NCBI RefSeq assembly: GCF_001428505.1
Contig: NZ_LMHU01000001.1
Location: 1,567,813-1,631,812, forward strand
Length of the DNA: 64,000 nucleotides
Reading direction: 5' to 3'
Source of the DNA: Terrabacter sp. Root181
GTDB lineage: Bacteria; Actinomycetota; Actinomycetes; Actinomycetales; Dermatophilaceae
The notes under the pieces are model-generated. The model worked only from the letters and a program-made list of their open reading frames with translations. It made no database searches and was not told the origin of the DNA. How positions within the stretch are numbered: the stretch's first letter is position 1; each line of letters starts with the position of its first letter. Made by a program: the position numbers and the translations under genes. Of the stretch, positions 2,191 through 64,000 are shown piece after piece.

Positions 2191-3609
2191 ATGCGCGCAC
2201 ACGAAGCCGGAGCGCTGCACGCCGAGGGCTATCGCGGCCCCGCGTGGCTCCAGACCCCCGTCGACGTCAACGCCCTCGTCCCGTCGCTCTGGGCGACGTC
2301 CGTCGGGCGGGGGAGCGACGGCGCCCTCACGGTCGGTGGGGTGAGCGTGACCGAGCTGGCACGCGAGTTCGGCACGCCGGCATACATCATCGACGAGGAC
2401 GACTTCCGTTCGCGCGCAAGGGATTTCAAGCAGACGTATGCCGAGGTGTTCGACGGCCTGTCGGGTGGCGCCGACGTGTTCTACGCCGGCAAGGCGTTCC
2501 TCTGCACCGAGGTCGCGCGGTGGGTCCACGACGAGGGCCTGCACCTCGACGTGTGCACGGGCGGCGAGCTCGCGGTGGCCAAGCGGGCCGGTGTCCCCGG
2601 CGACCGGATCGGCCTGCACGGCAACAACAAGAGCGTCGCCGAGATCCGCGACGCCCTCGACTACGGCGTGAGCCGCATCGTCATCGACTCCTTCGACGAG
2701 ATCGACCGCGTCGCCGCGGTCGCCACCGAGCTCGGGGTCGTCGCGCCGGTCCTCATCCGCGTCACGGTCGGGGTCGAGGCCCACACGCACGAGTTCATCG
2801 CGACGGCGCACGAGGACCAGAAGTTCGGTCTGTCCCTGTCGGGCGGTCACGCCTTCGAGGCGGCGCGTCGCATCCTCGACAAGCCGGAGTCGCTGCGCCT
2901 GCTCGGCCTGCACAGCCACATCGGCTCGCAGATCTTCGACACCGCCGGCTTCGAGGTGTCCGCCCGGCGCATCATCGGCCTGCACACCCAGATCGCCCGC
3001 GACCTCGGCGTCGAGCTGCCTGAGCTCGACCTGGGCGGCGGCTTCGGCATCGCCTACACGACCGAGCACGACCCCCTGCCGCCGAAGAACCTCGCGGCCG
3101 GGATGGCCGAGATCATCGAGCGCGAGTGCCGCGCCGAGCAGGTCGCCGTGCCGCGGATCTCCGTCGAGCCCGGTCGTGCCATCGCGGGACCCACCACCTT
3201 CACGCTCTACGAGGTCGGCACCGTCAAGCCCGTCGACCTCGACGGGGGCGCCCAGCGCGTCTACGTCTCCGTCGACGGCGGCATGAGCGACAACGTCCGC
3301 ACCGCCCTCTACGACGCCAACTACTCGTGCACGGTCGCGGGCCGCGCCTCGACGGCGCCCCCCGTGCTCGCCCGCGTCGTGGGCAAGCACTGCGAGAGCG
3401 GCGACATCGTCGTCAAGGACGAGTTCCTCCCCGCCGACGTCGCCGCGGGCGACCTCATCGCCGTCCCCGGCACCGGCGCCTACTGCCGCTCCCTGTCGAG
3501 CCAGTACAACCACACGCCCCGGCCACCCGTCGTGGCGGTCCGTGACGGGGTGGCCCGGGCCATCGTCCGGCGCGAGACGATCGACGACCTGCTCGCCCTC
3601 GACCTCTGA
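2191..3609 (+). CDS. lysA: Diaminopimelate decarboxylase
   Basis: Last step of lysine synthesis: PLP-dependent decarboxylation of meso-diaminopimelate in the cytoplasm. The 472-residue protein starts at the ATG at 2191, two bases after the preceding stop. It has the alanine-racemase-like barrel with PLP lysine in FYAGKAFL (about K101), HSHIGSQ, GGGFGI phosphate-binding loop and EPGRAI, then the C-terminal beta-domain containing the CESGD signature (CESGDIVVKD) that supplies an active-site cysteine from the partner subunit. Length suits actinobacterial LysA. It begins the lysA-hom-thrC-thrB run for the aspartate family. Confidence 0.97.
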   Translation: MRAHEAGALHAEGYRGPAWLQTPVDVNALVPSLWATSVGRGSDGALTVGGVSVTELAREFGTPAYIIDEDDFRSRARDFKQTYAEVFDGLSGGADVFYAGKAFLCTEVARWVHDEGLHLDVCTGGELAVAKRAGVPGDRIGLHGNNKSVAEIRDALDYGVSRIVIDSFDEIDRVAAVATELGVVAPVLIRVTVGVEAHTHEFIATAHEDQKFGLSLSGGHAFEAARRILDKPESLRLLGLHSHIGSQIFDTAGFEVSARRIIGLHTQIARDLGVELPELDLGGGFGIAYTTEHDPLPPKNLAAGMAEIIERECRAEQVAVPRISVEPGRAIAGPTTFTLYEVGTVKPVDLDGGAQRVYVSVDGGMSDNVRTALYDANYSCTVAGRASTAPPVLARVVGKHCESGDIVVKDEFLPADVAAGDLIAVPGTGAYCRSLSSQYNHTPRPPVVAVRDGVARAIVRRETIDDLLALDL

Positions 3610-3621
3610 TGCGTTCTGCAG

Positions 3622-3687
3622 ATCCTGCGTCACCGATGTCCGGATCGCGAAACAATGACCGTCCAGCACCCGGACAGACGGCAGGAT
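3622..3687 (+). promoter_or_regulatory. Long nested stem-loop between lysA and hom
   Basis: ATCCTGC (3622-3628) pairs with GCAGGAT (3681-3687), GTC with GAC, and TGTCCGG (3637-3643) with CCGGACA (3670-3676), giving 17 base pairs interrupted by a one-base and a five-base bulge around a 26-base loop. The right arm contains the AGGA that is the best ribosome-binding site for the hom GTG at 3695. The fold could hide that site or act as a terminator for lysA. There is no T tract, so translational control is the likelier reading, but this is inference. Confidence 0.5.
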
Positions 3688-5011: not shown

Positions 5012-6105
<1,094 letters not shown>

Positions 6106-6109
6106 CCGC

Positions 6110-7087
6110 GTGAACCGGGTGCCCGCGGGCCGCTCCGTCAGCGTGCGAGTGCCCGCGAGCAGCGCCAACCTCGGTCCCGGCTTCGACTCCATCGGCCTGG
6201 CCCTCGGTCTCTGGGACGCCTACGTCGTCACGACGTCCGAGTCCGCCGGCCTCGTCATCGAGGTCACCGGCGAGGGTGCGGGTGAGGTGCCCACCGACGA
6301 GCGCCACCTCGTGCACGCGACCATGCAGCACACGTGGCGCGCCCTCGGGGTCGAGCCCCCGGCAGGCCTGCGAATCGAGGCCACCAACGGCGTCCCGCAC
6401 AGTCGCGGGCTGGGCTCGTCGGCGACGGCCATCGTTGCGGGCGTCGTTGCCGCACAGGCTCTTTCGCTGGGCGTTGACGAGGGCGCGTATGCCGTGTGGC
6501 CGGCTCCCGGTGCCACCGTGCCCGTCGACCTCGGGCTGGCGACGCACTGGGCGAGCGAGCTCGAGGGGCACCCCGACAACGCGTCGGCCAGCGCCGTCGG
6601 CGGGCTGACGGTGAGCTGGATGCCGGACGGCACCGGGCTCGACCGAGGCGAGCGCACGGTGACCGCCTGCCTCGCCCCGCACCCGGACGTCGAGGTCGTG
6701 ATCTTCGTCCCCGAGACGCAGCTCGCGACGCGTACGGCCCGCGCCGTCCTCCCGGCCACCGTGCCGCTCGCCGCCGCCGCGGCCGGTGCCGGACGCGCGG
6801 CCCTGCTCGTGCACGCCCTCACGGCCGACCCGTCGCACCTGCACGCCGCGACGCGTGACTGGCTCCACCAGGAGGCGCGGCGCCCGTCCTACCCCGCCAC
6901 GATGGAGCTCGTCGACCTGCTGCGTGCCGAGGGGCACGCGGCCGTCGTGTCGGGGGCCGGGCCGAGCGTCCTCGTCCTCACGACGCGTGAGGTCGCCGCA
7001 GAGGTGCAGGCCGGGCACCTGGCGGCCGGCTGGCAGCGGCTCACGCCCGCGGTCCCGGCGTACGGGGCCACGGTGCACGCGCGCTAA
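6110..7087 (+). CDS. thrB: Homoserine kinase
   Basis: GHMP-family kinase phosphorylating homoserine for ThrC. 325 residues from the GTG at 6110, four bases after thrC. VRVPASSANLGPGFDSIGLAL is the GHMP N-terminal signature and PHSRGLGSSATAIVAG is the ATP-binding loop (motif 2). The C-terminal AAVVSGAGPSVL is motif 3. An unusual stretch (YAVWPAPGATVPVDLGLATHW, about residues 126-146) enlarges the loop that in other ThrBs leads directly to EGHPDN; it could be a family insertion. Last gene of the threonine run. Confidence 0.95.
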   Translation: MNRVPAGRSVSVRVPASSANLGPGFDSIGLALGLWDAYVVTTSESAGLVIEVTGEGAGEVPTDERHLVHATMQHTWRALGVEPPAGLRIEATNGVPHSRGLGSSATAIVAGVVAAQALSLGVDEGAYAVWPAPGATVPVDLGLATHWASELEGHPDNASASAVGGLTVSWMPDGTGLDRGERTVTACLAPHPDVEVVIFVPETQLATRTARAVLPATVPLAAAAAGAGRAALLVHALTADPSHLHAATRDWLHQEARRPSYPATMELVDLLRAEGHAAVVSGAGPSVLVLTTREVAAEVQAGHLAAGWQRLTPAVPAYGATVHAR

Positions 7088-7316
7088 CGGCGACATCCGG
7101 GACGTCCTTCACCCGTCCGACGGCCCTCGGGTGGTATCCTGAGCCCGCACCACACGCCGCGAGACCGCAGGCCGGTGCACCACCCCCACACTGAGGCGAA
7201 ATCCTTTGTCTCTGGGCGCGTTCTGCGCCGAAGTGGATCTCAGACGGCCAGGTCACCTGGTCCAAGTCCGGCCCGCTGGAATGTCCCGGGCCGCAAACGA
7301 GGGGGAAGGATCCTTC
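7088..7316 (+). promoter_or_regulatory. rho upstream region with putative promoter and leader
   Basis: 229 bases with no credible gene. TATCCT at 7134-7139 is a plausible -10 element, without a clear -35 at standard spacing. If used, rho mRNA would carry a leader of about 170 bases. The region holds several short inverted repeats and ends with AGGGGGAAGGA ahead of the rho GTG. Leader-dependent autoregulation of rho is known in other bacteria; whether it occurs here is inference. Confidence 0.4.
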
Positions 7317-9485
7317 GTGTCAGAAACAACCACCCGTCCGCTCTCTGGCCTGTCGGCCATGAAGCTGGACGAGCTCAAGGGCGTCGCGTCGTCGATGGGC
7401 ATCACCGGGACGACCAAGATGCGCAAGAGCGACCTCGTCGAGGCGATCAAGGCCCGGCAGTCCGGCGGTTCGTCCGCCCCCGCCGCGGCGCCGAGCCCGA
7501 CGGGCTCCGACGCCGCAGCCGCCACCGAGGCGGCACCGGCACGTGCCTCGCGCCGGTCCAGCCGTCCCGCCGGATCGGCCACGACCACGGAGGCGCCTGC
7601 CGAGGCACCCGCCCCCGCGGTGGCCACCGACGACCGCGGCCAGGACCGCGGCGACGACCGGGTCCAGGACCGGGGCGACGCCCCGGCCGAGGATCGCGCC
7701 CCCCGCGCCGAGCGAGCCGCCCGCGGCGCACGCGAGGGCCGGACGACCCGTGCCGACGCGCCCGACGCCCAGTCCTCCGAGCGCCCCGATGCCGACGACC
7801 AGCAGGCCTCCGAGGTCGACGACCGCCAGCGCGACCGCGGACGGGGACAGCAGCGCGAGCGCCAGCAGGGCGAGCGCCAGCAGGGCGAGCGCCAGCAGGG
7901 CGAGCGCCAGCAGGGCGAGCGTCAGCAGGGCGGCCGAGGCGAGCGCCAGGACCGCCAGCAGGGCGACCGCGGCCAGCAGTCCGACCGTCAGCAGTCACCC
8001 CAGCAGGACCGTCAGGACCGTCAGCAGGGCGACCGGCAGAACGACCGCGGCCAGCAGTCCGACCGCGGACAGCAGTCCGACCGTCAGCAGCCGCGCCAGC
8101 AGGACCGCCAGCAGGACCGCCAGCAGGACCGCCAGGGCGAGCACCAGCAGGACCGCCACCAGGGCGACGCGAACGACCAGAACCGGGGCCAGCAGTCGCC
8201 CTACGACGACGAGGGTGGCAGCCGACGCAGCCGCAACCGCCAGCGCAGCCGGGACCGCAAGCGCGGTCGTGGCCGTGAGGGTGGACAGGACTGGAACGAC
8301 GCCGACCTGCAGGTGGGCGACGACGACGTGCTCGTGCCCGTCGGGGGCATCCTCGACGTGCTCGACAACTACGCGTTCGTCCGCACGTCCGGCTACCTCG
8401 CCGGTCCGAACGACGTCTACGTACCGCTCGGCATGGTCAAGAAGAACGGCCTGCGCAAGGGCGACGCGGTGACCGGTGCCGTCAAGGCGCTGCGTGACGG
8501 CGAGCAGCCCTCGGGCAACGTCGGGCGCCAGAAGTTCAACGCTCTCGTGCGCCTCGACACGGTCAACGGGCAGAGCCCCGAGGAGGCCGCCAAGCGCGTC
8601 GAGTTCGGCAAGCTGACGCCCCTCTACCCGCAGCAGCGGCTGCGGCTCGAGACCGAGCCCAACGTGCTGACGACGCGCATCATCGACCTCGTCGCCCCGA
8701 TCGGCAAGGGCCAGCGCGGCCTCATCGTCGCACCGGCCAAGGCCGGCAAGACGATGATCATGCAGACCCTCGCCAACGCGATCACGACGAACAACCCCGA
8801 GTGCCACCTCATGGTCGTCCTCGTCGACGAGCGTCCCGAGGAGGTCACCGACATGCAGCGCGCCGTCAAGGGCGAGGTCATCTCCTCGACCTTCGACCGG
8901 CCCGCCGAGGACCACACGACGGTCGCCGAGCTCGCCATCGAGCGCGCCAAGCGTCTCGTGGAGCTCGGTCACGACGTCGTCGTGCTGCTCGACTCGATCA
9001 CCAAGCTGGGTCGCGCCTACAACCTCGCCGCCCCGGCGAGCGGGCGCATCCTCTCCGGTGGCGTCGACTCGGCTGCGCTCTACCCGCCGAAGAAGTTCTT
9101 CGGCGCGGCGCGCAACATCGAGAACGGCGGCTCGCTCACCATCCTCGCGACGGCGCTCGTCGAGACCGGCTCGAAGATGGACGAGGTGATCTTCGAGGAG
9201 TTCAAGGGCACCGGCAACATGGAGCTGCGCCTCAACCGCGAGCTCGCCAACCGCCGCATCTTCCCGGCCGTCGACATCAACAGCTCCGGCACGCGTCGCG
9301 AGGAGATCCTCCTCGCGAGCGAGGAGCTGAAGATCATGTGGAAGCTGCGTCGCGTGCTCGCCGCGCTCGACCCGCAGCAGGCCATCGAGCTGCTCATCGA
9401 CCGCCTCAAGAAGACGCGGACGAACTACGAGTTCCTCACCCAGGTCCAGCAGACGAGCAGCTCCAAGCTCGACGACGAGTCCTGA
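7317..9485 (+). CDS. rho: Transcription termination factor Rho with long disordered insert
   Basis: Hexameric RNA helicase that ends transcription at Rho-dependent sites. 722 residues from the GTG at 7317 (GGAAGGA upstream), against about 420 in Escherichia coli. Residues 1-45 are the Rho N-terminal helical domain (LSAMKLDELKGVASSMGI). Residues about 50-325 are a low-complexity insert of R, Q, D, E and G with short repeats. Then come the cold-shock-like RNA-binding domain (GILDVLDNYAFVRTSGYL), Walker A in APAKAGKTMIM (about residue 470), Walker B LMVVLVDERPEEVTDM, and the Q and R loops. High-GC actinobacteria often have such inserts, which add RNA binding. A terminator follows. Confidence 0.97.
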   Translation: MSETTTRPLSGLSAMKLDELKGVASSMGITGTTKMRKSDLVEAIKARQSGGSSAPAAAPSPTGSDAAAATEAAPARASRRSSRPAGSATTTEAPAEAPAPAVATDDRGQDRGDDRVQDRGDAPAEDRAPRAERAARGAREGRTTRADAPDAQSSERPDADDQQASEVDDRQRDRGRGQQRERQQGERQQGERQQGERQQGERQQGGRGERQDRQQGDRGQQSDRQQSPQQDRQDRQQGDRQNDRGQQSDRGQQSDRQQPRQQDRQQDRQQDRQGEHQQDRHQGDANDQNRGQQSPYDDEGGSRRSRNRQRSRDRKRGRGREGGQDWNDADLQVGDDDVLVPVGGILDVLDNYAFVRTSGYLAGPNDVYVPLGMVKKNGLRKGDAVTGAVKALRDGEQPSGNVGRQKFNALVRLDTVNGQSPEEAAKRVEFGKLTPLYPQQRLRLETEPNVLTTRIIDLVAPIGKGQRGLIVAPAKAGKTMIMQTLANAITTNNPECHLMVVLVDERPEEVTDMQRAVKGEVISSTFDRPAEDHTTVAELAIERAKRLVELGHDVVVLLDSITKLGRAYNLAAPASGRILSGGVDSAALYPPKKFFGAARNIENGGSLTILATALVETGSKMDEVIFEEFKGTGNMELRLNRELANRRIFPAVDINSSGTRREEILLASEELKIMWKLRRVLAALDPQQAIELLIDRLKKTRTNYEFLTQVQQTSSSKLDDES
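7856..7930 (+). repeat. Five tandem 15-bp repeats inside rho (ERQQG units)
   Basis: The unit CGAGCGCCAGCAGGG occurs five times in a row (7856, 7871, 7886, 7901, 7916), the last with one change, encoding ERQQG repeated in the disordered insert. Related DRQQ units continue to about 8165. Near-identical copies imply recent slippage, so copy number probably varies among strains. Confidence 0.9.
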
Positions 9486-9601: not shown

Positions 9602-10003
9602 ATGTCTGCGCCTGCCGGCGATCCCGATGCCAGCCCCGTCCGTGTCCTCGTGGCCGACGACGACGCCGACATCCGAGACCTCGTCGAGTTCAAGCTGACC
9701 CAGGCGGGGTATGCCGTCGAGGCCGTCCCCGACGGCATCAGCGCCTGGGAGGCGTTCGCCGCCGACCCGCCGCAGCTGGCGGTGCTCGACGTCATGATGC
9801 CGGGCCTGTCCGGCATCGACGTCCTCCGCAAGATCCGCGAGAGCGAGTTCTCGTCGGTGCCCGTGCTGCTCCTCAGCGCCAAGTCGCGTGACTCCGACGT
9901 CGACACCGGCTTCGCGGTCGGCGCCGACGACTACGTCATCAAGCCGTTCAGCCCCCGAGAGCTGCTCCACCGCGTCAACGGCATGCTCGCCCGGGCGCGA
10001 TGA
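9602..10003 (+). CDS. Stand-alone response-regulator receiver domain
   Basis: 133 residues, essentially only a CheY-like receiver: acidic triad at D19-D21 (VLVADDDADIRDLV), phospho-acceptor D63 in LAVLDVMMPG, S92 (LLLSAK), and K114 in DDYVIKPFSP. There is no DNA-binding or enzymatic output domain, so it must act through a protein partner. It heads an operon with a HEAT-repeat membrane protein, a glycosyltransferase and a GAF histidine kinase, and the gap to the next gene is 13 bases. It is likely phosphorylated by the kinase encoded at 12517-14682 and passes the signal to the HEAT protein or the synthase (inference). Confidence 0.9.
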   Translation: MSAPAGDPDASPVRVLVADDDADIRDLVEFKLTQAGYAVEAVPDGISAWEAFAADPPQLAVLDVMMPGLSGIDVLRKIRESEFSSVPVLLLSAKSRDSDVDTGFAVGADDYVIKPFSPRELLHRVNGMLARAR

Positions 10004-10016: not shown

Positions 10017-11075
10017 GTGATCATCGGTGCGGCGCTGCTCGTCGGCGCGACGGTCGTCGTCCTCGGGGCCTGCGTCCTGCTGATCTTCGCCGTCGTGGCC
10101 GTGCGCGCGCGACGGCACAGTCGCAACCAGCGCGACGAGATGCTGCTGTCCCCTCTGCGGCCGCCGCTCATCACGGTGGCCTCGGGCGAGGACGACGACG
10201 GTGCGGCCGCCGAGGAGCTGACCTGGGCGACCGGGGTCTCGCGCACCGTGCTCGACCGCAACATCGTCGAGATGCTCACCAAGATCCGGGGCGTTCCCGC
10301 CGAGCAGCTCGTCCACGTGCTCGAGGTCCACGGCGCCGTCGACGCGGCGGTCGCCGACATGTCGAGCCGCTCCACCGTCAAGCGCGCCCGGGCCGCCCAG
10401 CTGCTGGGTCTCGCCCGCGCCGGGCACACGGTCCCGCTGCTCGTCGAGGCCCTCGGGGACGAGTCGGTCGAGGTGCGCAACAGCGCCGCCTACGCGCTCG
10501 GCCTCATCGGCGACCCGGCGGCCGCCGGCCCCGTGCTCGCCGCGATCGGCGCGCCCGAGCGCGGACTCCCGGCCGCCACCGCCGCCGAGGCGCTGCAGTC
10601 GATGGGGGTCGGCATCTCGGAGGTGCTGCGCGACGGCATGGCCGACGCCAACGCGCGCACCCGCATGGTCGCCGCCCACCTCAGCGGCGAGCGCAGCTTC
10701 ACGCGTGGGCTGCCCGAGCTGCGGCAGCTGCTCGACGCCGATCCCGACCTCACGGTCCGCGAGACGAGCGCCACGGCCATCGGCCGCCTCGGTCGTGCTG
10801 AGGACGTCGGCATCCTCGTGCGCCACTGCGTGCCGTCCGAGCCGTTGGCCCTGCGCCGGGCCTGCGTCGTCGCCCTGGGCGAGCTCGGCGAGGCCGAGGC
10901 GATCCCGGCGCTCGCCCACCTGCTCGCCGACTCGGACCCGCGCCTGGCCGAGCTGGCCGCGACCGCCCTGCTGTCGATGGGTCCCGACGGACGCGACGCC
11001 CTCGAGGGACACGGGGACGACCCGGCCGTGCGCACCGCACGCCTGCTCGCCAGCCTGCAGAAGGCGTCTGCATGA
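10017..11075 (+). CDS. Membrane-anchored HEAT-repeat protein
   Basis: 352 residues from GTG 10017. Residues 1-30 form one hydrophobic helix (VIIGAALLVGATVVVLGACV) followed by basic residues, so the rest should be cytoplasmic. From about residue 110 it has HEAT/PBS-lyase-type helical repeats (VPLLVEALGDESVEVRNSAA; ALGLIGDPAAAGPVLAAIG; VRETSATAIGRLGRAEDVG; VVALGELGEAEAIPALAHLL). Such superhelices are protein-binding scaffolds. It has no lyase or kinase motifs. Its place between a lone receiver and a glycosyltransferase, with a four-base overlap into the latter, suggests it links phospho-signal and synthase. That role is inference. Confidence 0.85.
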   Translation: MIIGAALLVGATVVVLGACVLLIFAVVAVRARRHSRNQRDEMLLSPLRPPLITVASGEDDDGAAAEELTWATGVSRTVLDRNIVEMLTKIRGVPAEQLVHVLEVHGAVDAAVADMSSRSTVKRARAAQLLGLARAGHTVPLLVEALGDESVEVRNSAAYALGLIGDPAAAGPVLAAIGAPERGLPAATAAEALQSMGVGISEVLRDGMADANARTRMVAAHLSGERSFTRGLPELRQLLDADPDLTVRETSATAIGRLGRAEDVGILVRHCVPSEPLALRRACVVALGELGEAEAIPALAHLLADSDPRLAELAATALLSMGPDGRDALEGHGDDPAVRTARLLASLQKASA

Positions 11076-12520
11076 GCTGGGACGGCATCGCCTCGGGCCT
11101 GCGGTCCTTCGTCCTGTGGATCATGGACGTCACCGCGGTCCCGATCATCATCTACTTCGTCCTCATCAACACCTCGCTGCTCGTGCTCATCGGGCTGGCC
11201 TACCTCGAGTTCCGCGCCCAGCAGCGCCGGCGATCGACGGCCGTGGCGTGGCAGGGCGCCGGCCTCGCGCCGGGCGTCTCGCTGCTGGTCCCCGCCTACA
11301 ACGAGGAGGCCGGCATCGTCATGGCGGTCAAGTCGTTCCTCACGCTGCGCTACCCGCGGCACGAGGTCGTCGTCGTCGACGACGGGAGCAGCGACCAGAC
11401 CTTCGCCCGTCTCGAGGAGGCCTTCGACCTCGTCCACGTGCCTCGCGAGCTACCCCACGAGATCCCGATCCGGGCCAAGGTCCTCGGCATCTACGTCCCG
11501 CGTGACGGGCGCACCCGCCTCGTCGTCGTCCGCAAGGAGAACTCCGGGCGCTCCGAGGCGATCAACGTCGCCATCAACGCCGCGAGCGAGCCGCTCGTCG
11601 CGATGATCGACGGTGACTCGATCCTCGAGCCCGACGGGCTGCTCCACGTCACCCGTCCCTTCGCCGACGACCCGACGCGCATGGTCGCGACCGGCGGGGC
11701 CATCCGACCGGTCAACGGCAGCCGGGTCGTCTCGGGCCGCATCGTGCGCGTCGAGATGCCGCAGACCTGGCTGCCGCGCATCCAGCTCGTCGAGTACCTC
11801 CGCGCCTTCCTGCTCGGCCGCACCGGGTGGTCGCGCCTCGGCGGCCTCATCCTGATCAGCGGTGCCTTCGGGCTCTTCCGCCGCGACGTCGTCGTCGAGG
11901 TCGGCGGCCTCGACCCGACCAGCATCGGCGAGGACTTCGAGCTCGTCATGCGCATCCACAAGCGGCTGCGCGACGAGGGACGTGACTACTCCATCGAGTT
12001 CGTGCCCGAGCCGGTGTCGTGGACCGAGGTCCCCGTCACCGCGAAGGTGCTGCGCAACCAGCGCCGTCGGTGGCACCGCGGTCTCTGGGAGACGCTCTGG
12101 GCCTACCGCTCGATGCTCTTCCGCCGCAAGTACGGCCGGATCGGCTGGCTCGCCCTGCCGTACTACTGGCTCTTCGAGCTCTTCGCGCCGCTGCTCGAGC
12201 TCTTCGGCATCGTCATCGTGCCGCTGGCGCTGGCCCTGGGCATCGTCAACGTGCCCTTCGCGATCCTCTTCCTCGTGCTCGCCTACGGGTATGCCGTGCT
12301 CGTGACCCTCTCGGCGATGGTCGTCGACGAGTGGGCCTTCCACAAGCACGACCGGTGGCGGGCCATCTGGCAGACGATCGCCGCGTCCGTCCTCGAGAAC
12401 ATCGGCTACCGCCAGGCCACCGTGTGGTGGCGCCTCGAGGGGTGGTGGTCGAGCCTGCGCGGGAAGAAGCACGTCTGGGGTGTCATGACCCGCACGGGCT
12501 TCGACGAGGAACCCGCGTGA
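11072..12520 (+). CDS. Processive family-2 membrane glycosyltransferase
   Basis: 482 residues. A transmembrane helix at about 20-45 precedes a cytoplasmic GT-A domain: VSLLVPAYNEEAGI, VVVVDDGSSDQT, MIDGDS (DxD-type metal site), GEDFEL (catalytic acid region) and QRRRW, the QxxRW motif of processive synthases. Two or more C-terminal membrane helices (about 355-430) follow. This architecture matches poly-beta-1,6-GlcNAc, hyaluronan or cellulose-type synthases that make and export a polysaccharide. The sugar cannot be read from sequence. Overlaps both neighbours (ATGA at the start, GTGA at the end), so it is part of the signalling operon. Confidence 0.9.
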   Translation: MSWDGIASGLRSFVLWIMDVTAVPIIIYFVLINTSLLVLIGLAYLEFRAQQRRRSTAVAWQGAGLAPGVSLLVPAYNEEAGIVMAVKSFLTLRYPRHEVVVVDDGSSDQTFARLEEAFDLVHVPRELPHEIPIRAKVLGIYVPRDGRTRLVVVRKENSGRSEAINVAINAASEPLVAMIDGDSILEPDGLLHVTRPFADDPTRMVATGGAIRPVNGSRVVSGRIVRVEMPQTWLPRIQLVEYLRAFLLGRTGWSRLGGLILISGAFGLFRRDVVVEVGGLDPTSIGEDFELVMRIHKRLRDEGRDYSIEFVPEPVSWTEVPVTAKVLRNQRRRWHRGLWETLWAYRSMLFRRKYGRIGWLALPYYWLFELFAPLLELFGIVIVPLALALGIVNVPFAILFLVLAYGYAVLVTLSAMVVDEWAFHKHDRWRAIWQTIAASVLENIGYRQATVWWRLEGWWSSLRGKKHVWGVMTRTGFDEEPA

Positions 12521-14682
12521 CGGGCGGGCTGCCGGCCGTCTCGAGGCGTTCGGTGGGCAGCCAGATCCGGCTGCTCATCGGCATCCTCGTCGTGCTCGTG
12601 CCGATCGGCGCCGTCATCTCGGTCGCCACGATCCACTCCCAGGGTGCCGCGGTACGGGCCCTCACACTGGCGCTCGGGCCTGCCCGCGAGGCCAACAGCG
12701 CCGTGCTGCTCGACATGACCCGGGCCGAGGGAGCCTGGCGCGAGGGGGTCGTCGGCGCCCCGGCACCGCTCGACCCGCTGTCGCTGCGCACCCGGGTCGA
12801 GCAGGAGCTCGACGAGGTGGAGGCGGGCACGCAGAGCCAGGAGCTCGCGGCGGAGGACCGGGCCCGGTTCGCGGCGCTCAGCGCGACGCAGCGCAGTGCC
12901 GTCGAGGCCTGGTTCACGGCCGCCGCGGCCTCGCTCGAGGACGCTCCCAGCGCACCCCCGACGGCAGCCCCGACCGATGCGCCTCCCGGCACGCCCGGTG
13001 GCCCGGCGCCCGGCGCCACGGGTGCCACGCCGACCACCCAGCAGACGCAGCAGCGCACCCGCGTCGAGACGGCATACGCCTCGTTCCTGCGGGCCAACAG
13101 CGCGATCGAGGCCTCCATCCGCTCCCAGCGCGACGCCGCGCGCGTGGAGTCGCGCGAGGCGACCGGCGTCACCTCGGGCGTCATCATCGCCGTCGCCGCG
13201 GTCGTCGTGCTCGTCCTCATCGCTGCCGGCTTCGGGATGGACCGCGCCGTCGGCCTCCCGCTCGCCCGCCTGCGCGAGGTGGTGCGCCGGCAGGCCGAGG
13301 AGGACGTCATCGCGATGGCGAACCAGGAGGAGGGGGCGCTGGAGGTCCGCATGCTCGCGCGCGACTTCAACGACCTGACCCGGGCCAACGCCCGGCTCGT
13401 CGACCAGCAGGCCGCCGTCCTCGAGATGCAGGAGCTCGTGCTCGACGTCGGCCGGGGCGCGCGGTCGGCCGTCGACGTCCACGAGGCGCTGCAACGCGTC
13501 ACGACCAAGCTCGGTGCCGGTCTGGGCGCCGACCGGGTCCTGCTCTACACGCTCGGCGAGGACGGCCAGACGATCGAGGACCGACTCCAGTGGCACACCG
13601 ACGACCTGCCCGACCTCCCGCCGCTCCCGCGCTCCCTCGCGCAGCAGGTGGGGGCCGTCAACGACGAGCTGCGCCGCGACGTCGGCTTCTTCGACCTCGG
13701 TGACCTCCTGGCGCACCAGGCCTACGACGACGAGCGCGCACGAGCCTTCCACCGGGCCACCGGCGCCCGCTCGCTGCTCATGCTCCCGGTCGGCACGGGA
13801 GGCCGGGGCCTCGGCATCCTGTCGGTGATGATGGTGAGCGCCCCGCGGCGCTGGCACCGGCACGAGATCCAGGCCGCGCAGCAGTGCGCGGCCATCGCCG
13901 CCCAGTCGATCGTCGCGCTGCGCCTCTCGCAGATGCAGGACGAGCAGGTCCGGCGGCTCACCGAGCTCGACCGCCAGAAGACCGACTTCATGGCGACCGT
14001 CAGCCACGAGCTGCGCACCCCGCTGACGTCGATCAGCGGCTACCTCGAGCTCCTCGTCGACGGCGACTTCGGCGACGTCTCCGACGGCCAGCACGTGGCC
14101 CTCGACATCATCGGGCGCAATGCCACCCGGCTGCGGGGGCTCATCGAGGACCTCCTCGTCCTCAACAAGATCGAGGTCAGCGGGCTCCAGGCCGTGTCCG
14201 AGGAGGTCGCCGTGCACCACCTGCTGCGCACCGTCACCGAGACCATGGAGCCCGTGGCGGCCGCGGGGGGCGTGCGGCTGCTCTGCACCGACGTGCCCGA
14301 CGACCTCGTCGTCCGGGTCGACCGCGGGCAGGTCGAACGGGCCCTGATCAACCTCGGCTCCAACGCCGTGAAGTTCACGCCCGAAGGAGGGAAGGTCCTC
14401 CTGTCGGCCGAGCGCGCCGGGGACTCCACCATCATCTCCGTGCACGACACCGGCATCGGCATCCCGGCCACCGACCTCGCGCGCCTGTCCGAGCGCTTCT
14501 TCCGGGCCGGCAACGCCACGGCCGCGGCCATCCCCGGCACGGGGCTCGGCCTCGCGATCGTGCGCGCCATCGTCGAGGGCCACGGCGGCGAGCTCGTCAT
14601 CGCCTCGGTCGAGGGGGAGGGGACCACGATGCAGGTCGTGCTCCCCGTCGCCCAGCCGGCCGCCGTCCCGGCGCGGCGGTGA
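12517..14682 (+). CDS. GAF-domain sensor histidine kinase
   Basis: 721 residues from a GTG overlapping the glycosyltransferase stop. An N-terminal helix (IRLLIGILVVLVPIGAVISV) and a second at about 220-245 bracket an extracytoplasmic region with a Pro/Ala/Thr-rich linker (about 145-180). Then a HAMP-like stretch, a GAF domain (about 320-470), and the kinase core: H-box FMATVSHELRTPLTS, N-box LINLGSNAVKFTPEGG, G1 VHDTGIGIP and G2 GTGLGLAIV. It should autophosphorylate in response to an external or small-molecule cue and phosphorylate the lone receiver encoded at the head of the operon (inference from operon context). Confidence 0.93.
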   Translation: MTGGLPAVSRRSVGSQIRLLIGILVVLVPIGAVISVATIHSQGAAVRALTLALGPAREANSAVLLDMTRAEGAWREGVVGAPAPLDPLSLRTRVEQELDEVEAGTQSQELAAEDRARFAALSATQRSAVEAWFTAAAASLEDAPSAPPTAAPTDAPPGTPGGPAPGATGATPTTQQTQQRTRVETAYASFLRANSAIEASIRSQRDAARVESREATGVTSGVIIAVAAVVVLVLIAAGFGMDRAVGLPLARLREVVRRQAEEDVIAMANQEEGALEVRMLARDFNDLTRANARLVDQQAAVLEMQELVLDVGRGARSAVDVHEALQRVTTKLGAGLGADRVLLYTLGEDGQTIEDRLQWHTDDLPDLPPLPRSLAQQVGAVNDELRRDVGFFDLGDLLAHQAYDDERARAFHRATGARSLLMLPVGTGGRGLGILSVMMVSAPRRWHRHEIQAAQQCAAIAAQSIVALRLSQMQDEQVRRLTELDRQKTDFMATVSHELRTPLTSISGYLELLVDGDFGDVSDGQHVALDIIGRNATRLRGLIEDLLVLNKIEVSGLQAVSEEVAVHHLLRTVTETMEPVAAAGGVRLLCTDVPDDLVVRVDRGQVERALINLGSNAVKFTPEGGKVLLSAERAGDSTIISVHDTGIGIPATDLARLSERFFRAGNATAAAIPGTGLGLAIVRAIVEGHGGELVIASVEGEGTTMQVVLPVAQPAAVPARR

Positions 14683-16271: not shown

Positions 16272-17356
<1,085 letters not shown>

Positions 17357-17360
<4 letters not shown>

Positions 17361-47289: not shown

Positions 47290-47313
47290 AGGCACGACTG
47301 GCTGGAGGTCGCC

Positions 47314-51425: not shown

Positions 51426-52085
51426 GTGCGACGGACGACGGCGGGTCTCGGGTGCTGGCTCGTGCAGCCGGGCTACCTGCTCGTCGAGCTGCTCGTGGCT
51501 GCGGGCGCCTCGGCGGCGTACAGCCTCCGCGACGACACGATCAGCGCGCTCGGGATGCTGACCTGCGCCCCCGGACACGCGGGGGCGGTCGTCGACGTGT
51601 GCTCGCCCGGGCACGTGGCCCTCGACGTGGCATTCGTCGTCTTCGGCCTCCTGCGGGCGGCGGGAGCCGTCCTGCTGCGACCCCGGCTCGGTCCTGGCAG
51701 ATGGGCGCTCGCGACGGTGTGGCTCTGGGTCGTCTCGGCACTCTTCGCGGCCGCCGTCGGGCTCGCGCCGGTCGACCGCCGGCCGGGGTGGCACGTCGTC
51801 GTGGCGCTGCCCGTCTTCGTCCTGCAGCCGCTCGCGGTCCTCGCCACCGCCGAGGCGCTGCGGAGGTCGGGCGCCGTGCCCCGGGCCGTCGCCGTGTCGG
51901 GCCTCGTTCTCGGCGGCCTCATGCTCGCGGCGGCCGTCGCGTTCGGTCTGCTGCTCGGCAGCCCGACGTGGGTCGGGGGGCTCGAGCGCCTCGCCCTGTG
52001 GCCGACCTACCCGTGGCTCGCCGTCGTCGCCTGGGCGCTGGCTCGTTCGACCCGTCGACACGTCAACGAGCCGACCGCGACCTGA
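51426..52085 (+). CDS. DUF998-type integral membrane protein
   Basis: 219 residues from GTG 51426. Six hydrophobic helices; the first is followed by a long outside loop (SLRDDTISALGMLTCAPGHA...VCSPGH) with paired cysteines, as in the DUF998 family (compare the YSLRDNTISDLG-type motif). Function unknown. 46 bases before the deacetylase gene. Confidence 0.75.
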   Translation: MRRTTAGLGCWLVQPGYLLVELLVAAGASAAYSLRDDTISALGMLTCAPGHAGAVVDVCSPGHVALDVAFVVFGLLRAAGAVLLRPRLGPGRWALATVWLWVVSALFAAAVGLAPVDRRPGWHVVVALPVFVLQPLAVLATAEALRRSGAVPRAVAVSGLVLGGLMLAAAVAFGLLLGSPTWVGGLERLALWPTYPWLAVVAWALARSTRRHVNEPTAT

Positions 52086-52131
52086 CCGCAACACCCTGCG
52101 CGCCCACGGGTGCCTGCGTCACACTGTCGCC

Positions 52132-52935: not shown

Positions 52936-52944
52936 CATCGGGAG

Positions 52945-53385
52945 TCAGTGCGCGGTGCCTGAGGGCTCGACGAGCTCGACGAGGACCCCGCCGGCGTCCT
53001 TCGGGTGGATGAAGTTGACCCTGCTGTCACTCGTGCCGCGCTTCGGGGTGTCGTAGAGCAGGCGCAGGCCGCGCTCGCGCAGCGTCGCGCACACGGCGTC
53101 GATGTCGGTGACGCGGTAGGCGAGCTGCTGGATGCCCGGGCCGCTGCGGTCGAGGAACTTCGCGATCGTCGACTCGGGGGAGAGCGGCGCGAGCAGCTGG
53201 ATGCACGACCCGGAGTCGCCGACGCCCATCATCGCCTCGCGGACACCCTGCTCCGCGTTGGTCTCCTCGTGGAGCAACCTCATGCCGTAGGTCCCCTCGT
53301 AGAAGGCGATGGCGGCGTCGAGGTCGGGCACGGCGATGCCGACGTGGTCGATGTGGGTGAAGAGGGGGGCGGGAGTCGCGCTCAT
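52945..53385 (-). CDS. Methylmalonyl/ethylmalonyl-CoA epimerase (VOC fold)
   Basis: 146 residues from ATG 53385. Paired VOC modules: FTHIDHVGIAVPDLDAAIAFY with metal His, SCIQLLAPLSPES with Gln, GIQQLAYRVTDIDAV and GVLVELVEPS with metal Glu. It interconverts 2R/2S forms of methylmalonyl- and ethylmalonyl-CoA, linking Ccr product to the mutase. Divergent from the thiolase gene; same adjacency as Rv1322A-fadA4 in mycobacteria. Confidence 0.93.
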   Translation of the reverse strand: MSATPAPLFTHIDHVGIAVPDLDAAIAFYEGTYGMRLLHEETNAEQGVREAMMGVGDSGSCIQLLAPLSPESTIAKFLDRSGPGIQQLAYRVTDIDAVCATLRERGLRLLYDTPKRGTSDSRVNFIHPKDAGGVLVELVEPSGTAH

Positions 53386-53410
53386 GCTTCCAACGTAGGG
53401 CGGCGTCACG

Positions 53411-53436
53411 GCACACGGCACGGGTATGCCGTGTGC
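53411..53436. promoter_or_regulatory. Inverted repeat between epimerase and thiolase genes
   Basis: GCACACGGCA (53411-53420) and TGCCGTGTGC (53427-53436) are exact reverse complements around CGGGTA, and the right arm holds a GTATGCC word. In a divergent promoter region it is more likely an operator or structural element than a terminator. Confidence 0.5.
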
Positions 53437-53521
53437 GCTTGGTCATGCTCCTCGCGGGCCCCGCGGGGCCCCGTCTACAGTTGTCGGGACACCCCCAATG
53501 ACGTCGGAAGAGGCTTCACCC

Positions 53522-54727
53522 ATGACTGCTGACCGTCCCACCTCCGTGATCGTCGCCGGTGCCCGGACCCCCATGGGTCGGCTGCTCGGCTCGCTCAAGG
53601 ACTTCTCCGGATCGGACCTCGGTGGCGTCGCCATCAAGGGCGCTCTCGAGAAGGCGGGCGTGGCCCCGGAGCAGGTCGAGTACGTCATCATGGGCCAGGT
53701 GCTGCAGGCCGGCGCCGGCCAGATACCGGCTCGCCAGGCCGCCCACGCCGCCGGCATCCCGATGACCGTCCCGGCCCTGACGATCAACAAGGTCTGCCTC
53801 TCGGGCATCAACGCCATCGCCATGGCCGACCAGCTGATCCGCGCCGGCGAGTTCGACGTCGTCGTCGCCGGCGGCCAGGAGTCGATGACCAACGCGCCGC
53901 ACCTCATGACGAAGTCGCGCGAGGGCTACAAGTACGGCGACGTGACGATGCGCGACCACATGGCCTTCGACGGCCTCTGGGACGCCTTCACCGACCAGGC
54001 CATGGGGCTGCTCACCGAGCAGGCCAACACGGGCGACCAGGCCTTCACGCGCGAGGAGCAGGACGAGTTCTCGGCGCGCAGCCACCAGCTCGCCGCCAAG
54101 GCGTGGAAGGACGGCCTCTTCGACGACGAGGTCGTCAGCGTCTCGATCCCGCAGCGCAAGGGCGACCCGGTCGTCTTCAGGAACGACGAGGGCATCCGCG
54201 CCGACACGACGACGGCCTCGCTCGGCGGGCTGCGTCCGGCCTTCAGCAAGGACGGCACCATCACCGCCGGCTCCGCCTCGCAGATCTCCGACGGCGCAGC
54301 GGCCGTCGTCGTCATGAGCAAGGCGCAGGCCGAGGAGCTCGGCCTCACCTGGCTCGCCGAGATCGGTGCCCACGGCGTCGTCGCCGGCCCCGACTCGACG
54401 CTCCAGCAGCAGCCGGCCCGCGCCATCGCCCGCGCCTGCGAGAAGGAGGGCATCACGCCGGCCGACCTCGACCTCGTCGAGATCAACGAGGCCTTCGCGG
54501 CCGTCGGCCTCGCCTCGGCCAAGGAGCTCGGGATCGACATCGACAAGGTCAACGTCAACGGCGGCGCCATCGCGCTCGGCCACCCGATCGGGATGTCCGG
54601 TGCCCGCATCGCCCTGCACCTCGCGCTCGAGCTGAAGCGCCGGGGTGGCGGCGTCGGCGCGGCCGCACTCTGCGGCGGCGGCGGTCAGGGCGACGCCCTC
54701 ATCGTCCGCGTCCCCGCGTCCGCCTGA
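53522..54727 (+). CDS. Acetyl-CoA C-acetyltransferase
   Basis: Condenses two acetyl-CoA to acetoacetyl-CoA. 401 residues from ATG 53522 (GGAAGAGG nine bases upstream; ATG 53498 possible). Catalytic Cys in [12 protein letters not shown], His in [10 protein letters not shown], and second Cys region [10 protein letters not shown]...[12 protein letters not shown]. Closest in context to FadA4. First step of the ethylmalonyl-CoA or hydroxybutyrate route; meaB follows by 19 bases. Confidence 0.95.
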
Positions 54728-56784: not shown

Positions 56785-56834
56785 GCAGCCGGGGCGGCCG
56801 GGCGACGAGGACGGCGGCGGCATACGGTGGGGTC

Positions 56835-57149
56835 ATGCTGATCGCCTTCTCCGTCGCCCCCACCGTCGCGGCCGACGACACCGGATCGGTGTCCGACGCC
56901 GTCGCCCGAGCCATCCGCGTCGTGCGCGACTCGGGTCTGCCGCACCGCACCGACGCGATGTTCACGACGATCGAGGGGGAGTGGGACGAGTGCATGGCTG
57001 TCGTGAAGCAGTGCTGCGACGTGCTGGCGGAGACCTCGCCGCGTGTCGGGCTCGTGCTCAAGGCCGACATCCGTCCGGGCTGGACCGGCGAGCTCGACGG
57101 CAAGCTCGATCGGCTCGAGGATGCGCTCGGCCGTCAGCAGGATGACTGA
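56835..57149 (+). CDS. MTH1187/YkoF-like thiamine-binding family protein
   Basis: 104 residues from ATG 56835. Beta-alpha-beta fold MLIAFSVAPT...SVSDAVARAIRVVRDSGLPHR, DAMFTTIEGEWDECMAVVKQ and RVGLVLKADIRPG match the MTH1187 family, which binds thiamine-like ligands or has unknown function. Overlaps the next gene by eight bases. Confidence 0.85.
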   Translation: MLIAFSVAPTVAADDTGSVSDAVARAIRVVRDSGLPHRTDAMFTTIEGEWDECMAVVKQCCDVLAETSPRVGLVLKADIRPGWTGELDGKLDRLEDALGRQQDD

Positions 57150-57699
57150 GGGCGACTGGGAGCTCCGACCGCTCGCGCCCGAGGACTGCGACGAGCTCGC
57201 CCGGGTGCACATGGCGGTCTGGCGCGACGCGTACGCCGGTGTCATGCCGGCGGACTACCTCGACGGGCTGAGCGACGAGCGCTGCGCGGACCGCTGGCGT
57301 GAGAGCGCCGCCCGGCCCGAGGACGCGCCCGAGCGCACGCTCGTCGTCGTCGACCCCCAGGGACGCCTCGCCGGGTTCGGCAGTGCGGGCCCGACCCGGG
57401 ACGAGGACGCCCCCACCGAGTGGGAGCTGTATGCCGTCAACCTCGCCGCGCGCGCTCGTGGCACCGGCCTGGCGGACCAGCTGCTCGACCGCCTCGTGGG
57501 CGACCGCGACGCGACCCTCTGGGTCATCGAGGGCAACGCACGGGCCAGGGCCTTCTACACACGCCGCGGCTTCCTCGACGAGGGCGGGCGTGACGTGCAC
57601 CCGGCGACCGGCACCCCGGAGATCCGGATGGTCCGTCGCGCCAGACGGGTGCAGGACACTCTGCGCATGACGGGCAGAGGGCGCAGAACCCCGACGTGA
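57142..57699 (+). CDS. GNAT-family N-acetyltransferase
   Basis: 185 residues from ATG 57142, overlapping the preceding stop. ELARVHMAVWRDAYAGVMP, YAVNLAARARGTGLADQLLDRL (acetyl-CoA loop) and VIEGNARARAFYTRRGF are GNAT motifs A and B of the common small-molecule or protein-terminus group. Substrate unknown. Confidence 0.9.
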   Translation: MTEGDWELRPLAPEDCDELARVHMAVWRDAYAGVMPADYLDGLSDERCADRWRESAARPEDAPERTLVVVDPQGRLAGFGSAGPTRDEDAPTEWELYAVNLAARARGTGLADQLLDRLVGDRDATLWVIEGNARARAFYTRRGFLDEGGRDVHPATGTPEIRMVRRARRVQDTLRMTGRGRRTPT

Positions 57700-61001: not shown

Positions 61002-62644
61002 CCTCCGAGGGCCGCCGAGACGACGTCCTTGGCCTCGGCCTGGACGCGCGCGAGGTGTTCGGCGCCCTGGAAGGACTCGGCATAGATCTTGTAGACGTCC
61101 TCGGTGCCCGACGGGCGCGCGGCGAACCAGGCGCTGTCGGTCGTCACCTTGAGGCCGCCGATCCTGGCCCCGTTGCCCGGCGCCTCGGTCAGCTTGCCCG
61201 TGATCGGCTCGCCCGCAAGGGTCTCGGCCGTCACGTCGTCGGGGGAGAGGGCGCCGAGCTTGGCCTTCTCCTCGCGTGACGCAGCCGCGTCGATGCGGGC
61301 GTATGCCGGGTCGCCGTGTCGCGCGGTGAGCTCGGCGTAGTGCTGGCTGGGGGTGCTGCCGGTGGCCGCGAGGATCTCCGAGGCCAGCAGCGCGAGCAGG
61401 ATGCCGTCCTTGTCGGTCGACCAGACCGCGCCGTCCCGGCGCAGGAAGCTCGCGCCGGCGGACTCCTCGCCGCCGAAGCCCACCGAGCCGTCGAGCAGCC
61501 CGGGCACGAACCACTTGAAGCCGACCGGGACCTCGAGGAGCGTCCGGCCGAGGTCGGACGCGACGCGGTCGATCATCGAGGACGACACGAGGGTCTTGCC
61601 GATGGCGGTGGTCGCGGGCCAGTCCGGCCGGGCCCCGCCGTAGAGGTACTGGATGGCGACGGCAAGGTAGTGGTTGGGGTTCATGAGACCCGCGTCGGGC
61701 GTGACGATGCCGTGCCGGTCGGCATCGGCGTCGTTGCCCGTCGAGATGTCGTAGGCGTCCTTGGCGTGGATGAGCGAGGCCATCGCGGACGGGGAGCTGC
61801 AGTCCATCCGGATCTTGCCGTCCCAGTCGAGCGTCATGAACGCCCACTGGGGGTCGACGCGCGGGTTGACGACGGTGAGGTCGAGGCCGTGACGTTCGCC
61901 GATCTCGCCCCAGTAGGCCACGGCCGCGCCACCCAGCGGGTCGGCGCCGATGCGGACGCCGGCCTCGCGGATGCGCGCGAGGTCGACGACGTTCGGGAGG
62001 TCGTCGACGTAGGTGCCCATGAAGTCGTAGGAGCCGGCCTCGTCCCTCGCCTTGTCGAAGGGGACCCGCTTGACGTCCGTCAGGCCACCGCGGATCAGGT
62101 CGTTGGCGCGCGTGGCGATGACGGACGTCGCATCGGTGTCGGCCGGGCCGCCGTGCGGCGGGTTGTACTTGAAACCGCCGTCGGCCGGCGGGTTGTGTGA
62201 CGGCGTCACGACGATGCCGTCGGCGAGACCGCTTGCCCTCGAAGCCTTCCCGCGGTTGGCGCGCAGGATGGCGTGGGAGACGGCGGGGGTGGGCGTGAAG
62301 CCGTCCCGGTCGTCGACGAGCACCTGCACCCCGTTGGCGACGAGCACCTCGAGGGCCGAGCGCCAGGCGGGCTCGGACAGCCCGTGCGTGTCGCGACCGA
62401 TGAAGAGGGGCCCGTCGAAGCCCTGCGAGACGCGGTAGTCGACGATCGCTTGCGTCGTGGCGAGGATGTGGTCCTCGTTGAAGGCGGTGCGCAGGCTCGA
62501 GCCCCGGTGGCCCGACGTCCCGAACGCGACCTGCTGGTCGGGGTCGTCGACGTCGGGGTGCCGGTCGTAGTAGGCCCCGATGAGGGCGTCGACGTCGACG
62601 AGGTCCTGCGCCTCGGCCGGCTGGCCGGCGCGTGGGTGGGTCAT
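60998..62644 (-). CDS. pgm: Phosphoglucomutase (alpha-D-glucose-phosphate specific)
   Basis: Interconverts glucose 1- and 6-phosphate for glycogen and sugar-nucleotide supply. 548 residues from ATG 62644. [10 protein letters not shown], the phospho-Ser loop [12 protein letters not shown], metal loop [24 protein letters not shown] sugar loop and [16 protein letters not shown] phosphate site are all present. Start overlaps the glgB stop (ATGA) and stop overlaps the next gene, so three genes are coupled. Confidence 0.97.
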
Positions 62645-64000
62645 GAGGGGTCTCCGTTCGTCGTCGGGACGGCGTCGTCGCCCGAGCCGGTCCCGGCGGG
62701 GAGGTCCGGGGCGGTGGGCTCGTCGACGGGGACGAGCCAGACGGTCGACAGGCGCGGGACCGTCAGGTCGGCGGCATACGGCTGCTGGTGCCAGGCCTCC
62801 TCGCGTGCCTCGACGACGATGCCGGTGCTGCTCGGGGCGTCCGGGTGGTAGCCCGCGGTGTCGAGGACGACCGTCCACCTCCCGCCGCGCGGCAGGCCGA
62901 TCCGGTAGGACTGCTGCGTCTCGCCGCTGAAGTTCATGACGCACGCGACCACGGGTGCGTCGGTTGCCCGGTCGCCGGTGCCGAAGCGCAGCCACGAGAA
63001 CGTGTTGTGGGCCGCGTCGTCGGCCTCGAGCCACTCGAAGCCCGAGCGGTCGGCGTCGAGCTCCCACAGCGCACGGTTGCCCCGGTACAGGCCGTTGAGG
63101 TCCTTGACGAGGTTGTGGACGCGGTAGTGGAGCGGTTGCTCGAGCAGCCACCAGTCGAGGCTGCGGCCCTCGGACCACTCGGACTCCTGCCCGAACTCGC
63201 AGCCCATGAAGAGCAGCTGCTTGCCGGGGTGGCACCACAGGTAGGCGAGGAAGGCCCGCAGCGTCGCGACCTGCTCCTCGCGGGGACCCCGCGACTTGCG
63301 CAGCAGCGAGCCCTTGCCGTGGACGACCTCGTCGTGGCTGATCGGCAGCACGAAGTTCTCGTCGAACGCGTACATGAGCGAGAAGGTCAGCTTGCCGTGG
63401 TGGTAGCTGCGGTAGATGGGCTCCTCGCCGAGGTACTTCAGCGAGTCGTTCATCCAGCCCATGTTCCACTTGAAGCCGAAGCCGAGGCCGCCCTCGTTGG
63501 TCGGCTTCGTGACGCCCGGCCACGTCGTCGACTCCTCGGCGATCGTGACGATGCCGCCGACCCGCTTGTACGCGGTGCCGTTGGTCTCCTTGAGCAGCTC
63601 GACGGCCTCGAGGTTCTCGCGCCCCCCGTCCTTGTTGGGCACCCACGCCCCGGCGTCGCGGGCGTAGTCGAGGTAGAGCATCGAGGCCACGCCGTCGACG
63701 CGCAGTCCGTCGAGGTGGAACTCCTCGAGCCAGTAGATGGCGTTGGCGACGAGGAAGTTGCGCACCTCGGGCCGGCCGTAGTCGAAGATGTTGGAGCCCC
63801 ACTCGGGGTGCCAGCCCTTGCGGGGGTCCGGGTGCTCGTAGAGCGGCAGGCCGTCAAAACGCGCGAGGGCCCACTCGTCGGTGGCGAAGTGCCCGGGCAC
63901 CCAGTCGAGCAGCACCCCGATGCCGGCCCGGTGCAGCTCGTCGACGAGGAAGCGGAAGTCGTCGGGTCGCCCCCAGCGTGAGCTCGGCGCGTAGTAGCCC
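62641..64000 (-). CDS. glgB: 1,4-alpha-glucan branching enzyme, C-terminal part (cut by right edge)
   Basis: The frame is open to 64000 and continues beyond. GH13 motifs: [26 protein letters not shown] (nucleophile Asp), [31 protein letters not shown] (transition-state residues) and [11 protein letters not shown], then the C-terminal beta domain with [20 protein letters not shown]. Introduces alpha-1,6 branches in glycogen. Heads an operon with pgm. The N-terminal CBM48 region is outside the window. Confidence 0.97.

Follow-up and report, generated by a model that had tools for sequence, protein, structure and literature searches.

The 64,000-nucleotide (nt) stretch of the Terrabacter sp. Root181 genome analyzed here, called the window below, is densely marked with a short DNA word, GTATGCC, that occurs on both strands. 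We counted 27 GTATGCC sites, 16 on the plus strand and 11 on the minus strand, against a mean of 1.85 and a maximum of 6 in 100 dinucleotide shuffles. An earlier note on this sequence had listed about 26 copies; all 26 of its start positions are exact, and one further copy, at 2379 on the minus strand, brings the total to 27. Its figure of about six copies expected was too conservative, and the over-representation that it claimed for both strands is real and was understated. The word is also longer than the heptamer named there: position 8 is G at 27 of 27 sites, which yields the octamer GTATGCCG. An Rfam scan of the window returned one tRNA.

Many of the copies lie in called genes and read in the sense direction. 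On the plus strand, these are found at 2436–2443 (gene 1849–3609), 6487–6494 (6053–7087), 12289–12296 (11072–12520), 16382–16389 (prfA, 16272–17360), 27319–27326 (27020–27832), 32588–32595 (32007–33884), 40544–40551 (40473–42554, an acyl-CoA mutase), 42682–42689 (42575–42922), 57429–57436 (57043–57699) and, in another frame, 51295–51302 (51261–52085); on the minus strand, at 15387–15394 (14743–15936), 49229–49236 (48258–49670) and 62772–62779 (62641–63999). Two minus-strand copies, at 2378–2385 and 32476–32483, are antisense to the plus-strand genes 1849–3609 and 32007–33884. The plus-strand copy at 53424–53431 overlaps the ATG of a listed open reading frame (53426–54727, plus strand, a thiolase). 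Outside called genes lie the plus-strand copies at 9709–9716, 17524–17531, 46334–46341 and 61301–61308 and the minus-strand copies at 13070–13077, 35476–35483, 43647–43654, 48229–48236 and 56818–56825.

The remaining two copies pair with each other in a hairpin downstream of atpA, in keeping with the earlier remark that some copies lie in hairpins. The hairpin (29539–29576, plus strand) has a 17-bp stem and sits between atpA (27902–29533) and a same-strand gene called at 29638, and its arms are inverted copies of GTATGCCG, the left one at 29543–29550 on the plus strand and the right one at 29565–29572 on the minus strand. The folding energy for 29535–29585 is −39.2 kcal/mol (z −5.75). Comparison at this site covered eight of the nine genomes of the genus, G005 being without a match there. 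The word is kept in both arms in G001 and G004, where both partners of an adjacent stem pair have changed; the arms read GTGTGCCG/CGGCACAC in G002, G003 and G008; in G007 only the left arm retains the word, and G006 has diverged further. Similar hairpins match at other places in congeners. Because the stem persists where the word does not, it is kept for a reason of its own while the word comes and goes, and it may serve the atp operon as an RNA element.

Enrichment of the word extends throughout the genome and is not confined to the window; such confinement was one of the two results that, by the earlier note, would have undone its claim. In the 4.94-Mb assembly (12 contigs), GTATGCC occurs 1172 times on the forward and 1152 times on the reverse strand, and the word read backwards 217 and 201 times. 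In a 445-kb sample made of the window and 20 further stretches, GTATGCCG is the top 8-mer, with 178 copies versus 8.7 expected under an order-2 Markov model, and GTATGCCGT is the top 9-mer, with 95 versus 1.55; the density of GTATGCCG in this genome is about one per 2.2 kb. Of the 185 GTATGCC sites of the sample, 177 have G at position 8; at position 9, 99 have T and 55 have C. The other flanking positions hold little information, so the word does not belong to a longer element.

The excess of GTATGCCG is independent of codon use. Synonymous codons were shuffled within each gene for 200 rounds (codon-pair bias lies outside this model), and 293 called genes contain 115 copies of GTATGCCG versus 11.6 after shuffling (standard deviation 3.0, maximum 20), far from the ratio near one that the earlier note had named as the other result that would undo its claim. 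The gene caller was simple, calling 74–75% of the own-genome sample as coding, and genes that it missed inflate the non-coding counts. The frames N-TAT-GCC-G (61 of the 115 copies) and antisense NNG-GCA-TAC (33 of 115) predominate, yet all six frame and strand arrangements occur, as the earlier observation of more than one frame had anticipated. It is scarcely credible, then, that the word arises from codon or codon-pair bias or from a copied repeat element. The sizeable backgrounds of the GC-rich sister words described below would suit a codon bias, as would the reversed control GCCGTATG, itself above codon-aware expectation at 14 versus 5.0; however, that excess is far smaller than the excess of GTATGCCG, which survives synonymous shuffling, fills every arrangement and is found outside called genes too, and a repeat element is at odds with flanks that hold so little information.

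The arrangement of the copies bears on what might read them. In 11 of 11 genomes, the strand split is even across sampled stretches (heterogeneity p 0.21 to 0.99, with the origin unmapped), and because of this even split we set aside two of the motif kinds proposed in the earlier note, Chi and the FtsK-orienting polar sequences (KOPS). A chromosome-organization word, either a KOPS-like guide for a translocase or a site for a nucleoid or global regulatory protein, would be consistent with the even spacing statistics (gap coefficient of variation 0.97) and the genome-wide spread, and one of the sister words, CGAAGGGG, resembles KOPS in composition. But KOPS must be polarized, toward dif, and the words, CGAAGGGG included, split evenly between strands (dif unmapped); moreover, 120 of the 186 copies in the own genome lie in called genes, and we consider such a role quite unlikely. 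A Chi-like recombination hotspot, with a helicase-nuclease of the RecBCD or AdnAB type as its reader, is very unlikely: the word is an over-represented non-palindromic octamer, and its lower density in low-GC DNA parallels the higher density of Chi in core genomes noted in the available part of PMC8022716, but strand polarity is absent from all 11 genomes and inverted pairs are in excess.

These inverted pairs were counted in 15 genomes, in each case for the word dominant there. Within 60 nt, 26 convergent and 22 divergent pairs face 10 same-strand pairs, compared with 242 convergent, 217 divergent and 351 same-strand pairs at 301–1500 nt (binomial p 4.7e-5 for the excess of close inverted pairs). 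In 12 genomes, close inverted pairs hold 95 of 958 copies, and paired copies are more often outside called genes than unpaired ones (50/95 versus 228/863, p 3.5e-7), with the non-coding counts inflated by missed genes. Long perfect hairpins of the word occur in several dialects. Together with the post-atpA stem and its paired changes, these hairpins might suggest that the word arises as a side effect of RNA hairpins or terminators whose stem arms it forms. Such an origin is highly improbable, since just a tenth or so of the copies (the 95 of 958) are in close inverted pairs and single in-gene copies make up the bulk.

Two further features concern where the copies fall. Low-GC DNA, used as a proxy for foreign DNA, is poor in the word although the word is less GC-rich than the genome: the density is 0.46/kb where GC is at least 0.70 and 0.18/kb in five lower-GC stretches, corresponding to 168 copies in 363 kb and 18 in 100 kb (p 2.4e-5). 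One of the five stretches carries an IS110-family transposase. Within called genes of the own genome, 74 copies are sense and 46 antisense; over 12 genomes, the figures are 374 and 306.

We next consider the distribution of GTATGCCG among relatives. All nine genomes of the genus carry it, at 703 to 1200 copies per strand. The family is probably the Dermatophilaceae of GTDB, since Mobilicoccus massiliensis and Dermacoccus abyssi match two of its members exactly in their counts. Across its 149 genomes (53 genera), the counts have a bimodal distribution: 82 genomes carry 200 or more forward copies and the other 67 carry 5 to 185, the 200-copy cut having been chosen by us from the listed counts. 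A class-wide sample of 296 genomes included 290 that belong to 45 other families, and none of these exceeds 196 copies per strand. GTATGCCG is also at background in all 27 of the named genomes that were accessed via their AtpA loci. The named locus of Ornithinimicrobium cerasi holds 12 copies in 21.6 kb; in a codon-aware scan of named 21-kb loci, from which loci shorter than 14 kb or rich in N were skipped, this locus (L031) has 6 copies versus 0.8 expected and the others have at most 2. One Streptomyces locus (L048) has 11 copies of the sister word GTACGCCG versus 3.4 by the same model. GGACGCCG, which has the same shape, is extremely abundant in a metagenome-assembled genome of Propioniciclava (G160), a genus that we take to belong to another order. 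Its 3.1 Mb hold 2779 + 2719 copies, with 293 + 268 of the reversed control, the highest GGACGCCG density among 28 genomes searched, and locus L045 has 26 copies versus 8.5 by the codon-aware model. Close inverted pairs of GGACGCCG are unenriched in this genome (4 inverted versus 5 same-strand). GGACGCCG hints at a reach beyond the family, and we treat it as a lead only.

Relatives without GTATGCCG often carry sister words instead, namely GGATGCCG, GTACGCCG, CGATGCGG and CGAAGGGG. For each of 20 relatives, an 80-kb sample was drawn and all of its 8-mers were ranked with an order-3 model; the following counts come from this ranking. GGATGCCG is dominant in G034 (80 versus 8.1 expected) and G109 (82 versus 10.6); GTACGCCG or its one-base shift in G048 (60 versus 12.0) and G088 (56 versus 11.3); CGATGCGG in G065 (50 versus 11.5); and CGAAGGGG in G081 (82 versus 9.3). 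In G130, CGAAGGGG (34 versus 8.2) ranks behind the overlapping GAAGGGGG, G018 has GGACGCCG (45 versus 13.6), and G105 holds two words, GTATGCCG (26 versus 2.3) and GTATGGCG (21 versus 2.7). In eleven genomes, the main word has a codon-aware z of 14 to 37, and the two words of G105 reach 11.6 and 11.8; from 19 kb each, z is 8.8 in G024, 9.1 in G047, 5.7 in G033 and 3.1 in G031, and it is weak, 3.3 to 4.0, in G018 and G076. G022, in which the gene caller called 4% as coding, stands outside this test.

Whole-genome counts were made in the 149 family genomes. GGATGCCG reaches 1104 to 2258 forward copies in 7 genomes, the next highest count being 674, and GTACGCCG reaches 501 to 2125 in 11, followed by 436; by these cuts, 97 of the 149 genomes have at least one of GTATGCCG, GGATGCCG and GTACGCCG. 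The word can also switch within a genus. In genus g26, G033 and G102 carry GTATGCCG (543 and 1829 forward copies), and G076 has 737 forward copies of GTACGCCG with 10 of GTATGCCG; in genus g36, one of five sampled genomes, G129, lacks GTATGCCG (17 copies). The sister words differ from GTATGCCG by one to a few bases and, aligned by eye, the words have in common A at position 3, G at position 5 and G at position 8. CGAAGGGG fits least well, matching GTATGCCG only at positions 3, 5 and 8 and often 9. In G081 (L200–L203, L220) and G130 (L140–L143, L221), CGAAGGGG(T/G) is dominant and forms long perfect hairpins, with G favoured two bases upstream.

The word might instead be HIP-like, created and maintained by a methyltransferase, possibly aided by biased mismatch repair, as has been proposed for HIP1, the highly iterated palindrome of cyanobacteria; different methyltransferases would then yield the alternate words of relatives. 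The accessible part of PMC4390886 describes alternate HIPs together with their matching methyltransferases, which makes this the most serious rival and means that uptake sequences are not alone in being replaced lineage by lineage; near-matches to GTATGCCG are, in addition, unenriched in the own genome. Nonetheless, we consider it unlikely, because HIPs are palindromic whereas neither GTATGCCG nor any sister word equals its own reverse complement, the words differ by small steps that leave the same positions unchanged, and close inverted pairs are in excess.

Words other than the dialects were also over-represented in places. The palindrome ATCGCGAT stands at 8–12 copies versus about 1 in each of five unrelated actinobacterial loci (L033, L036, L042, L054, L080) and at 24 versus 4 in the G088 sample. 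CGATGCCG is mildly above codon-aware expectation in several family genomes, with or without a dialect word (for example G000, 154 versus 92.5; G097, 34 versus 14.2), and AGGGCAAG has 13–15 copies versus about 2 in the G048, G097 and G105 samples. CTCCCCCG, which is unlike the dialect words, has 20 copies versus 2.3 in the G066 sample (L188–L191).

The codon-aware excess, the family-wide occurrence and the sister words together support the view that the DNA word as such is under selection or drive, and the earlier note had proposed selection of this kind. Of the four kinds of motif that it offered (Chi, KOPS, uptake and methylation), uptake fits best. The absence of polarity, the inverted pairs, the dialects and the rarity in low-GC DNA are genomic hallmarks of DNA uptake sequences, and they argue against a Chi or KOPS role. 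We therefore regard the word as probably an actinobacterial DNA uptake sequence with dialects. In such a system, GTATGCCG(T/C) would be a short, non-palindromic tag preferred by the competence machinery, through which the DNA taken up by a cell would chiefly be that of its own kind. Preferred uptake and recombination of tagged fragments would raise the frequency of the tag within and between genes and in both orientations, and changes of receptor specificity between genera would have produced the dialects GTATGCCG, GGATGCCG, GTACGCCG, CGATGCGG and CGAAGGGG and the weaker ones. From the genomic pattern we infer that DNA uptake is the process in which the word is read and that the organisms carrying it are competent; its reader may be a minor pilin of the pilus or ComEA.

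Candidate parts of such a machine are encoded in the own genome. Locus L204 has a ComEC with a metallo-beta-lactamase domain and a ComEA with SLBB and helix-hairpin-helix domains, and L228 is a Tad/Flp pilus locus with a TadA-like ATPase and TadE_Rv3655c and Rv3654c-like proteins, as well as a CpaE-like protein below its cut-off. In Micrococcus luteus, transformation needs ComEA, ComEC and Flp/Tad pili, according to the available portions of PMC6370729 and PMC8467076. A type IV pilus of the PilM type was considered as the machine and rejected, PF11104 being present in 5 of the 149 family genomes and absent from the own genome.

Several observations weigh against an uptake sequence with dialects and should be set beside the evidence for it. 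First, ComEC is present in 145 and a Tad-like ATPase in 147 of the 149 family genomes (135 above cut-off), with or without a word; the ATPase model also matches weakly in 13 of 14 control genomes, above cut-off in one. Being nearly universal, the two proteins failed as discriminators, and neither explains which genomes carry a word. Second, among eight proteins (ComEC, ComEA, CpaE, TadA, TadB, Flp, TadE and Rv3654c-like) compared across 16 word-carrying genomes (105 pairs for seven proteins, 91 for the eighth), none tracks the dialects, the best being ComEA with a partial r of 0.28 (p 0.057, uncorrected); as several proteins were recovered only as fragments, such as the 61 residues of the own ComEA, the covariation test is a weak one. 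Third, drive might be expected to leave a halo of near-matches, and one-mismatch variants of GTATGCCG in the own genome are mostly at or below codon-aware expectation. For instance, GTACGCCG has 43 copies versus 54.0 and GTATGCCC 0 versus 4.4; ATATGCCG (4 versus 1.0) and GGATGCCG (71 versus 48.1) are above it. Fourth, six sampled family genomes (G049, G057, G066, G097, G129 and G137) yielded no word of the same shape, and CGAAGGGG could be unrelated to GTATGCCG. Lastly, the sense preference is not general, three of the 12 genomes leaning antisense and one being even, and the post-atpA stem is kept in congeners that lack the word.

No actinobacterial uptake sequence appeared among the papers listed in searches of the open-licence PMC literature (bioRxiv lay outside them), and the main text of PMC2843746, on abundant oligonucleotides, contains neither GTATGCC nor GGCATAC. 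The uptake sequences in the literature surveyed are those of Neisseriaceae and Pasteurellaceae. The fuller proposal is that Actinomycetota have an uptake system of their own, in which cells lacking an outer membrane read a word with an A-G--G core via Tad/Flp pili or ComEA; one family would have five dialects or more, with a switch even within a genus. On the present analysis, we consider it as apt to prove wrong as right. If true, self-selective DNA uptake would have evolved elsewhere too and would depend on neither an outer membrane nor a PilM-type pilus. Competence would then be predicted in dozens of genera, genetic tools could be improved by adding the matching word to donor DNA, and the natural dialect switches, even those within one genus, could help to find the receptor.

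Other genes of the window deserve brief mention. Rho (7206–9485, 759 amino acids) matches its family model over residues 47–748 for 411 model positions, so that the protein contains long extra sequence. The region 40473–54727 has acyl-CoA mutase, crotonyl-CoA carboxylase/reductase and thiolase genes and an 853-amino-acid fusion with two 3-hydroxybutyryl-CoA dehydrogenase stretches; these genes resemble part of an ethylmalonyl-CoA pathway.

Among known systems, natural transformation is found in Micrococcus luteus, which belongs to the same phylum and has the same kinds of machinery, ComEA, ComEC and Tad/Flp pili; the portions of PMC6370729 and PMC8467076 available to us make no mention of an uptake sequence. 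Chi, as presented in part of PMC8022716, is likewise an over-represented non-palindromic octamer but is polarized on the leading strand, which the word described here is not. Cyanobacterial HIP1 and the alternate HIPs (Elhai 2015, PMC4390886, in the part accessible) offer a parallel, in that a highly abundant octamer gives way to alternates in some lineages; unlike our word, HIPs are palindromic and tied to methyltransferases. The uptake signal sequence (USS) of Pasteurellaceae, such as H. influenzae, comes nearer. In the accessible part of Bakkali 2007, uptake sequences are non-palindromic, have no orientation bias and lie in inverted repeats in ~10% of cases; in that of van Passel 2008, they prefer one orientation in reading frames. 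The word resembles USS in density, in the lack of orientation bias, in the roughly one-tenth of copies in inverted repeats and in the preference for one reading-frame orientation (in the own genome, 74 sense and 46 antisense), and differs in that the extended USS motif is AT-rich, whereas here there is little beyond position 10. The DNA uptake sequence (DUS) of Neisseriaceae has a different sequence and belongs to a different phylum, and a PilM-type pilus is absent from the own genome. As described in the part of Frye et al. 2013 (PMC3630211) at hand, the DUS shares with the word described here that a short non-palindromic word recurs hundreds to thousands of times, that some relatives are without any word, and that related genera carry dialects built on a common core, CTG there and A-3, G-5 and G-8 here.

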